Below are positions 7,020 through 62,798 of a stretch of DNA of 64,000 nt, piece after piece. The DNA lies in contig NZ_JAVIWQ010000002.1 in NCBI RefSeq assembly GCF_034313965.1, positions 1,054,001 to 1,118,000 on the forward strand. Reading direction: 5' to 3'. Both the position numbers and the translations under genes were made by a program. This stretch comes from Herbaspirillum sp. RTI4. Its GTDB lineage: Bacteria > Pseudomonadota > Gammaproteobacteria > Burkholderiales > Burkholderiaceae_D. The stretch's first letter is position 1; every line of letters begins with the position of its first letter. The notes under the pieces are model-generated. The model saw nothing but the letters and a program-made list of their open reading frames with translations. It was not told the DNA's origin and did not search any database.

Positions 7020-9464
7020 ATGGCTGCTCCGCTTCCCCCTACTCCCACCGACAAGAAATCCCCGGAAAACATCCCGTCAGCAGGCCGCAAGACGGGCATT
7101 GCGTCGGAGAGAAATGCCGCGACTAAGCCATCTCGCTGGCGGCGTCTGCCCTTGGTGTTGCGCATGCTGATCGCTAGTGTCGGCGTGTTTGTGGCCTTGA
7201 TTGCGATGGCCGCTCTCGGTATTTTCTTTATCGTAACGCTGGCCTACCCCAAGCTGCCGGAAATTGACTCCCTGACCGACTATCGTCCCAAAGTTCCGCT
7301 GCGTATTTTTTCCGCAGATGGCGTCTTGATTGGTGAATTCGGTGAAGAGCGTCGCAGCCTGATGCGGATCAATGAAATTCCCTTGATTATGAAGCGCGCT
7401 GTTCTGGCCATTGAGGATGATCGGTTTTACGAACATGGCGGGGTCGATTATCAAGGCATCGTTCGCGCAACTCTGGCCAATCTGCACGGCGGCGGCGGCG
7501 GCGCGAGCACCATTACCCAGCAGGTAGCCCGCAATTTCTTTTTAACCAGCAATGAGCCAACCTTTGTGCAGCGCGCTTCGCGCAAATTTCTTTATGAAAT
7601 TCCATTGGCCTGGAAAATAGAACGCAGTCTGAGCAAGGATCAGATCCTTGAGGTTTACATGAACCAGATTTATCTGGGACAGCGGGCCTATGGCTTTGCC
7701 TCGGCAGCGCAGATTTATTTCGGCAAGAATCTGAAAGACATCACGATCGCGGAGGCCGCCATGCTGGCTGGTTTGCCGAAAGCGCCGTCCGCTTACAATC
7801 CGGTGGTCAATCCCAAACGCGCCTACGCGCGCCAGCAATATATTTTGCAGCGTATGAATCAGCTCGGTTACATCACCAATGCGCAATATGACACTGCGCA
7901 GAAGGAAGAGCTGGATATCAAAACCGACAACACCGTGTTTGGCGTTCACGCCGAATACGTGGCGGAAATGGCGCGTCAATTGGTCTATGCGCAATTCAAG
8001 GATGAAACTTATACACGCGGTCTGAATGTGTTTACCACCATCACCAAGACCGATCAGGATGCGGCCTATCTCGCGCTGCGGCGCGGCGTGATGGATTATG
8101 AAAAGCGTCATGGCTATCGCGGTCCGGAAGCCTACATGGAAATTCCCGAGGGATCGAAGGACGATATCGAAGAAGCGTTCGATGTTGAGCTGGCCGATCA
8201 CCCTGCCAACGACGATATTTTTGCTGCCGTGGTGACGGCGGCGAGTCCCAAGCAAATTGATGCAGTGCTGGCGACGGGCGAAGAAATCAAAATCGTCGGG
8301 CCGGGACTCAGTTTTGCCACTAATTTATTGAGTGACAAAGCGCCGCCGCAACGCAAGGTCAAGCGCGGTGCGATCATCCGTGTGATTCAGGATGGCAAGG
8401 ACTGGAGCGTGACGCAATTGCCCGATGTGGAATCGGCGCTGGTGTCCACCAGCCCGCAAGATGGTGCGATCCGCGCGTTAGTCGGTGGCTTCGATTTCAA
8501 TCGCAACAAGTTCAACCACGTCACTCAGGCCTGGCGGCAGCCGGGTTCGTCGTTTAAACCTTTCATTTATTCCTCGTCACTGGAGAAGGGCTTGTCGCCG
8601 GCCACCATTATTAATGATGCGCCGCTGACGTTCACTCAGACCGGCGGTCAGGTCTGGCAACCGAAGAATTACGGCAGCAAGTTCGAGGGGCCGATATCGA
8701 TGCGGCGCGCCTTGCAGAAGTCAATCAATATGGTGTCGATACGCATCCTCGACCGGGTCGGCGTCAAGTATGCGCAGAATTACATTACCCGCTTTGGTTT
8801 CGATGCAGAAAGACATCCACCTTATCTGACCATGGCTTTAGGCGCAGGCGCTGTGACGCCCCTGCAAATGGCGACGGCCTTTTCCGTTTTTGCTAACGGC
8901 GGTTACAAGGTCAACCCCTATCTGATTTCTAAGATTACCGATGTCAACAACAAGCTGGTGAGTTTCGCCAGACCGGTACAGGCCGGTGACGAGGCCAATC
9001 GGGTGATTGATGTTCGTAACGCCTTCATCATGGACAGTATGCTGCGTGACGTCGTTCGGCATGGCACCGGTTTCAAGGCGATGTCGCTCAAGCGTACTGA
9101 TCTGGCGGGCAAGACCGGCACCACGAATGATTCGCTCGATGCCTGGTTTGCCGGTTACCAACCCGGACTGGTGGGCATTGCCTGGATGGGATACGACCAG
9201 CCGAAAAGTCTGGGCGGCAGGGAAACCGGCGGCGGTCTGGCATTGCCGATCTGGATCAATTACATGCAAACCGCACTCAAGAATGTGCCGAACGTGGATC
9301 GCACCGTACCGGCAGGCATCATTGAAAGCGGCGGCGACTATTACTACAGCGAATTCTCGCCCGGCAATGCTGCCGTGCGTGACCTCGGCTTGGGTGGTGC
9401 GGATGGAAGTGCTGCCCCCACCGAAGAAAAAACAAGTAACGCAGTCAAAAACGAACTCTTCTGA
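7020..9464 (+). CDS. mrcA: Penicillin-binding protein 1A, bifunctional
   Basis: This class A penicillin-binding protein polymerises glycan strands and cross-links peptides in the periplasm. After a basic cytoplasmic tail and one membrane helix (about 49-77) comes the GT51 glycosyltransferase domain, with EDDRFYEHGG, GASTITQQVARN and the ERSLSKDQILEVYMNQIYLG helix region. An OB-like region follows (about 330-480), then the transpeptidase with SSFK (serine nucleophile), SIN and KTGT motifs in order. The 814-residue length is usual. No clear Shine-Dalgarno site precedes the ATG, so the start is uncertain; the next methionine in frame is at residue 49, at the beginning of the membrane helix. A repeat element begins immediately after the stop codon. 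Confidence 0.95.
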   Translation: MAAPLPPTPTDKKSPENIPSAGRKTGIASERNAATKPSRWRRLPLVLRMLIASVGVFVALIAMAALGIFFIVTLAYPKLPEIDSLTDYRPKVPLRIFSADGVLIGEFGEERRSLMRINEIPLIMKRAVLAIEDDRFYEHGGVDYQGIVRATLANLHGGGGGASTITQQVARNFFLTSNEPTFVQRASRKFLYEIPLAWKIERSLSKDQILEVYMNQIYLGQRAYGFASAAQIYFGKNLKDITIAEAAMLAGLPKAPSAYNPVVNPKRAYARQQYILQRMNQLGYITNAQYDTAQKEELDIKTDNTVFGVHAEYVAEMARQLVYAQFKDETYTRGLNVFTTITKTDQDAAYLALRRGVMDYEKRHGYRGPEAYMEIPEGSKDDIEEAFDVELADHPANDDIFAAVVTAASPKQIDAVLATGEEIKIVGPGLSFATNLLSDKAPPQRKVKRGAIIRVIQDGKDWSVTQLPDVESALVSTSPQDGAIRALVGGFDFNRNKFNHVTQAWRQPGSSFKPFIYSSSLEKGLSPATIINDAPLTFTQTGGQVWQPKNYGSKFEGPISMRRALQKSINMVSIRILDRVGVKYAQNYITRFGFDAERHPPYLTMALGAGAVTPLQMATAFSVFANGGYKVNPYLISKITDVNNKLVSFARPVQAGDEANRVIDVRNAFIMDSMLRDVVRHGTGFKAMSLKRTDLAGKTGTTNDSLDAWFAGYQPGLVGIAWMGYDQPKSLGGRETGGGLALPIWINYMQTALKNVPNVDRTVPAGIIESGGDYYYSEFSPGNAAVRDLGLGGADGSAAPTEEKTSNAVKNELF

Positions 9465-9585
9465 AGAACCGCTGATTAAGCTACTGCGCGGCGCAATCTC
9501 AGGGCTGCGATGCTCGTCGTACTCGAGTACGACTGCGCTTCTTACCCTGACCTTGCGTCGCTCGCTACGCTTACTCAGCGGTTCT
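9465..9585. mobile_element. MITE-like element at the ponA stop codon
   Basis: The 121-bp segment is bounded by imperfect terminal inverted repeats. The left end reads AGAACCGCTGATTAAGCTA, and the right end, read on the other strand, is AGAACCGCTGAGTAAGCGTA. In the middle is a perfect 18-bp palindrome (gtcgtactcgagtacgac, 9516-9533). It codes for nothing. Size, terminal repeats and the central hairpin fit a non-autonomous miniature element. Its left end abuts the ponA TGA. I see no clear target duplication, so transposition is inferred rather than shown. Confidence 0.65.
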
Positions 9586-9713
9586 GGTGCTGCCGGAGAA
9601 AAACAGGTGTTGACTAGATCTCAGCTTGTAAATGCGGATCGCATTCAGGTATTGCCATGTTCGCAGGGCTGCAAGAATTCAAATCGTCACCGTACTCAAA
9701 TACGACTGCGCTT

Positions 9714-10380
9714 CTTACCCTGACCTTGCGTCGCTCGCTACGCTTACTCAGCGGTTCCGGTGTTGCCTGAGAAAAGCGGCTGTACACAGTTGTTCAGGTC
9801 GGGATACTGATCGTCTCAGACACAACCATGCTCTTCTCCGCTTGGTAAAGCCCAGCCGTCCTTAAAGTAGGGCTGGGCTTCTTACCCTGACCTTGCGTCG
9901 CTCGCTATGCTTACTCAGCGGTTCCGGTGCGGCCTGAGAAAAGCGGCTGTACACAGTTGTTCAGGCCGGGATACTGATCGTCTCAGACACAACCATGCTC
10001 TTCTCCGCTTGGTAAAGCCCAGCCGTCCTTAAAGTAGGGCTGGGCTTCTTACCTTGGCCTTGCGTCGCTCGCTACGCTTACTCAGCGGTTCCGGTGCGGC
10101 CTGAGAAAAGCGGCTGTACACAGTTGTTCAGGTCGGGATACTGATCGTCTCAGACACAACCATGCTCTTCTCCGCTTGGTAAAGCCCAGCCGTCCTTAAA
10201 GTAGGGCTGGGCTTCTTACCCTGACCTTGCGTCGCTCGCTACGCTTACTCAGCGGTTCTGGTGCGGCCTGAGAAAAGCGGCGGTACACAGTTGTTCAGGT
10301 CGGATACTGATCGTCTCAGACACAGCCATGCTCTTCTCCGCTTGGTAAAGCCCAGCCGTCCTTAAAGTAGGGCTGGGCTT
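9714..10380. repeat. Four near-identical 167-bp tandem repeats with hairpins
   Basis: Four head-to-tail units start at 9714, 9881, 10048 and 10215 (167, 167, 167 and 166 bp). They differ by only a few substitutions and one single-base deletion. Each unit starts with the right half of the upstream MITE-like element (cttaccctgaccttgcgtcg onwards). The rest is unit-specific: nested arms AAGCGG/CCGCTT and GTTGT/ACAAC, then a strong hairpin AAGCCCAGCC/GGCTGGGCTT followed by TTCTTA. A divergent relative of the unit fills 9541-9713 and a decayed end follows at 10381-10435. No start codon with a ribosome site is conserved, so the array looks non-coding. It might be a multi-copy small RNA or a purely structural repeat; I find no good promoter inside the unit. 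Confidence 0.85.
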
Positions 10381-10484
10381 CTTACCCTGACCTTGCGTCG
10401 CTCGCTATGCTTACTTGCTCTTACTTAGAGGTTCTGGCGCCGCTGGGACATCAGCGGCAGCGGGTGCCGGCTACATATCCTGCC

Positions 10485-10537
10485 GTTCGTCCTGAGTAGC
10501 CCGGAGGGCGTATCGAAGGATCCGGCGGCACGCCGGG
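10485..10537. repeat. REP-like palindromic intergenic repeat
   Basis: The stretch contains an imperfect hairpin TCCTGAGTAGCCC/GGGCGTATCGAAGGA, followed by a second hairpin CCGGCG-gca-CGCCGG. The TCCTGAG...TCGAAGGA pattern is a very common dispersed intergenic palindrome in proteobacteria. It lies just downstream of queC on the minus strand and could help end that transcript. Confidence 0.6.
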
Positions 10538-10591
10538 CGGTTCAAGGTGCTGCCATGTTCCTCCTGAGTGCACAGCGGATTCCGTGATTTT

Positions 10592-11320
10592 TTAAGCAGG
10601 GTTTCCGGCGGCAAACTGTTGGTAACCGTTGGCGCGCAAGGCGCAGGCGGGACATTCGCCGCAGCCATATCCCCAGTCATGCAAGGTCCCGCGCTCGCCA
10701 AGGTAGCAGGTGTGGGTGTCGGCGCGGATCAAGTCGATTAAGGCATCGCCGCCTAGTGTGCGTGCGAGTTCCCAACTGGCGGCTTTGTCTATCCACATGA
10801 GTGGAGTTTCCAGTCTCAGGCGGGTGGCCATGCCCAGATTGAGTGCCACTTGCAGTGCCTTGATCGTATCGTCGCGGCAATCGGGATAGCCTGAAAAATC
10901 CGTTTCGCACATGCCACCTACGAGGACATCGAGTCCGCGCCGGTAGGCAACCGTGGCCGCTACCGTCAGGAATAGCAGGTTGCGACCCGGGACGAAGGTG
11001 TTCGGCAAGCCGTTTTCCTGCATCGTGATGGCGACGTTGCTGGTCATGGCGGTGTCTGAAATGGCGGCGATCAGCGATAGGTCGATCAGGTGATCGGCAT
11101 CTAAACGTGCCGCCCAGTCCGGGTTCATGGCGCGCATTTTTTCCAGGATGGTAGGGCGTACCGTTAATTCGACGGCATGGCGCTGGCCGTAGTCGAAACC
11201 GATGGTTTCTACCCGGGGATAGCGCTCAAGAGCCCAGGCCAGGCAGGTGGTCGAATCCTGACCGCCGCTAAAGAGGACCAGTGCGCCTTGCGGCGCGGCG
11301 GCATTGTGCTTGCTTGTCAT
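10592..11320 (-). CDS. queC: 7-cyano-7-deazaguanine synthase QueC
   Basis: QueC converts 7-carboxy-7-deazaguanine to preQ0 with ATP and ammonia, a step in queuosine tRNA modification. The 242-residue protein has the PP-loop SGGQDS near residue 18 and the C-terminal zinc-binding cysteines (TCYLG, then GCGECPAC). It has the family's normal length. It is the last gene of a minus-strand run: the DUF3108 gene upstream ends 4 bp before its ATG, so the genes are co-transcribed. No other queuosine genes and no preQ1 riboswitch are visible nearby. Confidence 0.96.
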
Positions 11321-47847: not shown

Positions 47848-48164
47848 TCGGAATTTGCGAAGGGCGCGATAGGCGGACTATATCTTCGAGCGCTGCCAAC
47901 AAATATCAGAGGAAGCCAGTGCTCGGCGCAAGCTCAGGGTCGGTTGTCCGTTGTGCTCGAGTGGGGCGGCGTTCTTACTAAGCTTGCGCCACTAATTCAG
48001 AGGACCCTGGGAGGTGCAGACATGAATAATTGCCACAATTGACCACGGCGAGTGACAAAACAGAGCGTAAGAGTACATATTGCCACTCAAAGTTGCTTGT
48101 ATCGTCCTGATTTCTGTAACAAAGTGTGATTAGAGGGGTTTGTCGGGGTTTATCGCCCCATTTT

Positions 48165-62405: not shown

Positions 62406-62460
62406 GGTGCTGAATTCCTTGAGTGAAGAATTGGGTAACTTACGGACAAAGCCGCTGGCG

Positions 62461-62645
62461 TTGTTGCATTGCCTTGCCGTGCTAGAGCACTGTCTGCGGC
62501 AATGCGCCTAGCCAGTGGCGTTGTTGCATTGCCTTGCCGTGCTAGAGCACTGTCTGCGGCAATGCGCCTAGCCAGTGGCGTTGTTGCATTGCCTTGCCTT
62601 GCCGTGCTAGAGCACTGTCTGCGGCAATGCGCCTGGCCAGTGGCT
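62461..62645. repeat. Three 60-bp tandem hairpin repeats between DUF1120 genes
   Basis: Two exact 60-bp units (62461-62520, 62521-62580) are followed by a 65-bp unit with a five-base insertion (cttgc) and a few changes. Each unit can fold into a long hairpin: outer arms GCATTGCC/GGCAATGC and an inner GTGCT-ag-AGCAC. The array sits in the 393-bp gap between the two type B genes, 56-240 bp upstream of the start of the downstream copy. No gene is visible in the gap. Confidence 0.93.
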
Positions 62646-62798
62646 TTGTGCGTAAGTCCTAAAACCGTAACCGGCCCTATTCATTTCGGAGGCTATGTTT
62701 TCATGGATGGCCGCGCAGGGTGCGAGAGGTTGTCGCACTGAGTACGGTCGCCTCCGCTGCGCTGAACTTGCCAACGCGCCCACTTTTCAGAAACTGCC

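Follow-up and report, generated by a model that had tools for sequence, protein, structure and literature searches.

The window that we analysed, a stretch of 64,000 nt, corresponds to positions 1054001-1118000 of contig C2 in a 3.99-Mb genome. In this window ponA is followed by the convergent gene queC, and the gap between them measures 1127 bp. By synteny, queC lies much nearer to ponA in several relatives, and in genome G026 the end of queC is within ~20 nt of the ponA stop codon. We infer that this gap, which is tight in several relatives, has been filled here by a 121-nt element that we designate E, a tandem array with a 167-bp period and a second interspersed repeat. The features of the locus, in window coordinates and with the evidence for each in parentheses, are as follows.

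7020..9464, plus strand: ponA, penicillin-binding protein 1A (ORF; Pfam Transgly, Transpeptidase, PCB_OB)
9462-9464, plus strand: ponA stop codon, TGA
9465..9585, plus strand: element E, full 121-nt copy with constant inner loops and covarying stems P1-P4 (model score 139.9 bits; alignment, pair counts, fold)
9465..9481, plus strand: left arm of the E outer stem P1, abutting the ponA stop codon (inverted repeat)
9569..9585, plus strand: right arm of the E outer stem P1 (inverted repeat)
9586..9690, plus strand: first spacer, diverged from the array spacer (split of the locus)
9691..9760, plus strand: first truncated E copy, query positions 57-126 (blastn, chromosome 1063691-1063760; model 15.8 bits over 9635-9758)
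9706..10415, plus strand: 167-bp tandem array, consisting of the right half of E and a private spacer (TRF)
9802..9968, plus strand: array unit 1 (repeat-family comparison)
9969..10135, plus strand: array unit 2 (repeat-family comparison)
10136..10301, plus strand: array unit 3 (repeat-family comparison)
10302..10415, plus strand: array unit 4, partial (repeat-family comparison)
9848..9880, no strand assigned: unit hairpin AAGCCCAGCC...GGGCTGGGCTT, 33 nt, again at 10015, 10182 and 10348
10592..11320, minus strand: queC, convergent with ponA (Pfam; synteny)

The second interspersed repeat (CGTTCGTCCTGAGTAGCCCGG...GTATCGAAGGATCCGG) occupies positions 10484-10541, between the array and queC, and stretches that resemble it were also seen at loci L070 and L080 and behind ponA in L364. 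Elsewhere in the window, TRF reported a 60-bp tandem repeat at 62456-62649 (3.2 copies, 94% matches), and positions 47913-47988 resemble E weakly (73.8% across E positions 17-96). A simple consensus scan of positions 9300-10700 returned no promoter-like or terminator-like sites, including no intrinsic terminator (GC-rich hairpin and T run), which agrees with an earlier interpretation made from the letters alone (the sequence-only reading) in that it had found no convincing promoter inside the array unit.

Structure of element E and its probable folding strand

The 121-bp inverted-repeat element that the sequence-only reading had placed at the ponA stop is indeed present, at 9465-9585. The base directly after the ponA TGA is its first base, and its terminal arms of 17 nt are 94% complementary. 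An alignment of 27 E copies showed constant stretches, such as CTACTGCGC, GATGCTC, GCGCTTCT and TCGCTAC, and stems between them in which the sequence varies and the pairing is kept. Of the stem cells in this alignment, 92.9% were paired, compared with 30-38% when the partners were slid by 1-3 columns. Double changes occupied 175 cells, compared with 57 on average after shuffling, and 23 of 47 pairs were altered on both sides (shuffled mean 18.6), in shuffles that ignore the relatedness of the sequences; further pair types were not above chance (55 versus 51.5 in shuffled alignments; 61 of 500 shuffles). RNAalifold reported covariation at 21 of 44 pairs, and the fold z-score of E was -8.3, versus -3.4 for the array unit. 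Rfam 15 gave no match over its gathering score in window positions 9000-11000, and five E-bearing loci from other genomes were likewise without an Rfam match above gathering scores. E, and not the array, is the main find at this locus. A variant subfamily, with TTGCTC / TGCGCTACTC in the inner loop, was also seen in G175, a complete Janthinobacterium chromosome (loci L303, L305 and L307).

The helix of a working RNA, or of a single DNA strand, tolerates G.U (G.T) pairs better than A.C pairs, and the mismatches within the E stems can be read accordingly. For this tally, 110 of 164 distinct elements were used (the 49 with a length of 122 nt and the 5 with 120 nt were left out) and were thinned to 59 non-redundant copies; these elements had been chosen by a motif pattern, so the constancy of the loops in this set is partly built in, while the stem statistics are unaffected. 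Reading the sense strand, we counted 153 A.C versus 35 G.T cells, distributed as 54/25 in P1, 47/10 in P2, 37/0 in P3 and 15/0 in P4, and the A.C cells of the sense strand are G.T pairs on the antisense strand. This count omits four inner pairs. One of the four is an invariant T.G pair at E positions 21/100, which is present in 59 of 59 copies and corresponds to a sense-strand G.U; adding all four gives 154 A.C versus 97 G.T. The antisense strand also folded better in 58 of the 59 copies with RNA parameters and in 56 of the 59 with DNA parameters, and its mean fold energy was -69.0 kcal/mol, versus -58.6 kcal/mol for the sense strand (RNA parameters). Because of this mismatch pattern and these energies, the folding strand of E is most likely the antisense strand. 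The covariation of E is strong, but the mismatches that its stems tolerate favour the antisense strand, which counts against a 3'-UTR RNA read from the sense strand.

Distribution of E and its position at stop codons

BLAST searches with E gave 77 matches in its own genome (fragments and both strands counted). Within the genus, 33 of 34 genomes had a match; outside it, none of three genomes from other genera of the family did, and one of 24 genomes of other families had a weak one. A covariance model built from the 27-sequence alignment matched in at least 109 of 195 genomes and at least 32 of 44 genera of the family; these model counts are lower bounds, with at most 18 candidates scored per genome and, in another scan, 150 of 2001 candidates. 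Among the matches listed, the span of E was 119-123 nt, mostly 121. The complete chromosome G175 held 93 matches, representing 90 copies and 3 opposite-strand duplicates. In an exact-pattern scan, the matches listed included named genomes of Janthinobacterium, Massilia, Ralstonia, Undibacterium, Glaciimonas and Herbaspirillum, as well as Zoogloea, Thauera, Uliginosibacterium and others, and one gammaproteobacterium, Solimonas marina. Full-length copies in tandem, 2-5 nt apart, were observed as a set of three in an uncultured Burkholderiales genome (L247, 5522-5891) and as a pair in Solimonas marina (L182, 3045-3293). Spread by plasmids or phages was considered and set aside, as blastn found no match to two E copies in plasmids and none to one copy in phages; this is a weak test, because blastn detects close copies only.

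In its own genome, E lies in the orientation of the upstream gene at 20 of 23 copies, as judged by a gene caller, and 17 of the 23 start within ~13 nt of the stop codon of that gene. The downstream genes run in either direction (12 sense, 11 antisense). A similar arrangement was found in the named genomes, where the end of a sense ORF fell within -60..+20 of the left end of E at 63 of 76 copies, compared with 16% of 1520 random positions, and within -6..+4 at 49 of the 76; this set excludes second copies of tandems, copies cut by contig ends, unusual lengths and low scores. In G175, we examined 60 of the 61 best copies (the copy at 2,020,090 was left out), and a sense ORF ended within -80..+25 of the left end at 57 of them, versus 18.7% of 1250 random positions. 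The left end was within -6..+4 of an in-frame stop codon at 48 of the 60 copies, versus 1.8% of the 1250 random positions, and the abutting stop codons were TAA at 21 copies, TGA at 14 and TAG at 13. On the right side of E, an antisense ORF ended within -80..+25 at 43 of 60 copies and within -6..+4 at only 4 of 60; therefore, the sharp peak at stop codons belongs to the left end of E alone. The ORFs in these position counts are open frames of at least 100 codons, a few of which may be spurious. In many related bacteria, members of the E family thus mostly begin at the stop codon of a gene, and the family is likely mobile.

Orthologous sites in Janthinobacterium differ in whether E is present. 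At six loci, 30 such sites, taken from the 30 matches that came with the locus DNA, comprised 10 occupied by E and 20 empty. Locus B was represented by three sites with E and seven without, locus D by four with and five without, and at loci C and F the element was present in G175 and the sites were empty in five and three other genomes, respectively. These differences represent gain or loss of E, and at the occupied sites E starts at the stop codon. No target duplication was found, either as a consistent direct repeat over 60 copies or in the comparisons with empty sites. Behind ponA itself, the model (E-value ≤0.4) found no element in 29 other ponA loci, one of which extends only 50 nt past the stop, in a comparison covering 30 loci among 34 genomes with a ponA match. 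By eye, locus D sites that lack E (L327, L335, L351 and L343) were seen to carry other palindromes (GTCGGATTACGCGC...TAATCCGAC) directly behind the same stop codon, and stop codons may therefore be a general landing zone for palindromes.

Position and orientation of this kind could mean that E acts as an RNA on the sense strand, i.e., as a 3'-UTR element that stabilises mRNA, blocks Rho or terminates transcription, with the array multiplying this function for ponA. The sense orientation, the abutment on stop codons, the very stable fold and the covariation are all consistent with such an RNA, as is the invariant T.G pair, which would be a G.U pair in the transcript. However, mismatches and energies otherwise favour the antisense strand, and the tolerated mismatches therefore constitute evidence against a sense-strand RNA. 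The genes upstream of E are also diverse, with 110 upstream ORFs falling into 78 clusters, most E motifs are gone from the array units (see below), and the relatives examined lack E behind ponA. We consider a sense-strand 3'-UTR RNA unlikely. As a terminator in particular, E was rejected, since the consensus scan of 9300-10700 showed no terminator-like site and since the copy at locus F of one genome (G175) is flanked by flgF and flgG (identified by reading frames and NCBIfam FlgF and FlgG), a place where a strong terminator would be unwelcome.

Origin of the 167-bp array

TRF described the array as having a period of 167, 4.3 copies, 97% matches and a score of 1336, and repeat family D2 gave spacings of 167, 167 and 166. 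The sequence-only reading was accurate about its make-up: the units are near identical, as comparisons among the three complete ones gave 111, 112 and 113 identical positions out of 114; repeat comparison confirmed that each reuses the right half of E; and ~105 bp of each is array-only sequence, with window positions 9930-10034 matching four places, all in this array. When the spacer was sought in the rest of the genome and in relatives, its matches stayed confined to this array, and it was thus present in one of 34 genomes of the genus and in none of the other 33 searched. The proposed hairpin in each unit occurs at four places, although the fold of the unit is far weaker than that of E, as judged by the z-scores given above. 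The idea of a MITE-like element with tandem expansion was right in outline, except that a first truncated copy (9691-9760) precedes the regular units.

The functions proposed for the array, as a set of small RNAs, a multi-hairpin 3' UTR or a protein-binding array, gained no support, the spacer being private and units 1-4 lacking four of five E motifs. Only TCGCTAYG, of the five motifs looked for, is kept throughout the units, and GCGCTTCT occurs once in the array region, in the first truncated copy. With filters off, the E model scored 139.9 bits at E, 15.8 at the first truncated copy and 8.7-10.3 at the array units, and the unit hairpins scored 9.7 bits on the other strand. A conserved RNA encoded by the array was rejected, since the spacer was found at one locus only among the 34 genomes of the genus.

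The array is of an ordinary kind. In its own genome, ten loci show a full E followed by one to seven left-truncated copies in the reading direction of E, each locus with its own spacer, and seven of the ten are TRF arrays with periods of 118-167 bp. By eye, the spacers at several array loci begin alike (CCGGTGCGGTGGG), and decayed second E copies lie behind several single copies; from these two observations, an ancestral unit consisting of E, a spacer and a second copy, E', is likely to stand behind the arrays. Given such a possible common ancestor, the ten loci with a shared layout are not independent events. In another species of the genus, a 70-bp array includes the right end of E, on the same side (L104, 1303-1523), and at L070 a two-copy 298-bp repeat begins just to the right of E. 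One repeat is off-pattern, at L080 (2696-3184), with two copies and a period of 243 bp, and contains only the left half of E and no full copy; in it, the left half of E is fused to the second interspersed repeat named above.

We also weighed whether the array might be a BIME-like protein-binding or supercoiling array that is kept by selection at this locus. Its regular spacing and near-identical units would suit this explanation, and passages in PMC3733652 describe REP clusters in which REPs are reiterated together with flanking DNA. The unit, however, is found at one locus only among the 34 genomes searched, and arrays elsewhere differ in spacer and range from 118 to 167 bp in period, as neutral amplification predicts. 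We regard selection for such an array as very unlikely. The 167-bp array is probably amplified debris, i.e., a by-product of E and not a working part.

Proposed mobility of E and comparison with known systems

We lean towards the hypothesis that E moves by copying itself to stop codons as folded, single-stranded antisense DNA and that the array is debris of subsequent amplification. E would be mobile as a folded single strand of antisense DNA on which a nuclease acts in trans, and it would land at stop codons in the sense orientation with its left end on the stop. Direct E copies would then recombine unequally, or replication would slip between them, and the array would grow; unequal exchange would amplify the spacer together with truncated E, and the resulting array would have no function. 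Stop codons would not be preferred if targets were chosen freely; selection or a transcription-linked step would be needed in addition.

The strand asymmetry of E is also compatible with an antisense RNA. In such an explanation, a bottom-strand RNA from E would work in cis or in trans, with the array encoding decoys of it. Its G.U-type pairs lie on the bottom strand, which also folds better, and the absence of a replichore bias fits RNA as well as DNA: in G175, 45 copies lay in one orientation with respect to replication and 45 in the other (with the origin assumed at base 1 and the terminus at half length), an even count that therefore lends no support to lagging-strand DNA. On the other hand, the consensus scan found no sigma-70-like promoter, most E motifs are missing from the array, and the genes downstream of E run in both directions (12 and 11 of 23), so read-through cannot supply an antisense RNA everywhere. 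We judge an antisense RNA distinctly unlikely, and we prefer single-stranded DNA because no promoter was found and because the downstream genes run either way.

In a search for a mobilising enzyme, Y1_Tnp was present in 180 of 195 genomes, and its family-wide co-occurrence with E is therefore uninformative. The E model had no match, at an E-value ≤10, in nine Y1_Tnp loci with 1.5-kb flanks, and a 100% complete genome with at least 18 E matches (G190) had no Y1_Tnp match; on these grounds, a RAYT was rejected as a linked partner of E. Similarly, a reverse transcriptase was rejected as partner, as RVT_1 was found in five of six genomes searched and was absent from the E-rich G104. A more specific version of the mobility hypothesis, which we offer tentatively and with some doubt, is that E would be the first known mobile hairpin family whose insertion reads the end of translation, through a predicted enzyme that recognises the constant inner loops of the antisense strand. 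E would then land in the sense orientation on stop codons of unrelated genes in Burkholderiales and some neighbours, and the arrays would be one-sided amplification scars.

E has counterparts of several kinds among known repeats. ERIC/IRU and other enterobacterial RU elements are MITE-like intergenic repeats with a unit of ~127 bp; compared by description only, E resembles them in being intergenic, MITE-like and of similar size, and we know of no abutment on stop codons with fixed orientation for ERIC. E also resembles the MITEs of insertion sequences, being short, noncoding and interspersed, with terminal inverted repeats. Unlike them, it lacks a target-site duplication, and its terminal arms vary within one genome yet stay complementary; to our knowledge, E has no parent element. 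Mycobacterial interspersed repetitive units are an interspersed element that gives rise to several VNTR-like arrays, as E does, whereas an E array lies to one side of a full copy and joins truncated E to a spacer of that array alone. Integron attC ends carry the core sites RYYYAAC / GTTRRRY, and these were not seen by eye at the ends of E copies.

E also resembles the REPs. In passages of PMC3733652, GTAG REPs and REPINs are palindromes of 20-40 bp, tagged at one end by an unpaired GTAG or CGTC, which form clusters that reiterate the REP and flanking DNA, and GTAG-type REPs are noted there and in parts of PMC2817692 to lie close to the 3' ends of ORFs and to be able to supply a TAG stop codon. 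As in these accounts, E is palindromic, occurs in many copies per genome, clusters at the 3' ends of ORFs and forms clusters with flanking DNA, and on its antisense strand both feet of the inner hairpin have a GTAG. E differs from the REPs so described in its size of 121 nt versus 20-40 and in its tag, with the GTAG being internal, doubled and inside a 17-bp outer stem. Its loops are constant over many genera, its orientation to genes is nearly fixed, and neither flanking by a RAYT nor linkage or informative co-occurrence with one was found, action in trans being possible.

Altogether, E is best read as a large REP-like mobile-hairpin family with an unusual tie to stop codons, uncatalogued as far as we searched; we found no published description of an E-like element in a literature consisting mostly of open-access papers. 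With 90 copies in one genome, it can serve as a marker family, one for which these searches turned up no catalogue entry, and, for annotators, arrays like the 167-bp one are explained as likely secondary products. The empty sites in close relatives make the copying agent of E, and the way in which it finds gene ends, open to testing. That REP-type repeats gather at gene ends is known, and E, whose length is near-fixed, whose loops are constant, whose stems covary and whose left end sits on the stop codon in a fixed orientation, is a sharp case for asking why.
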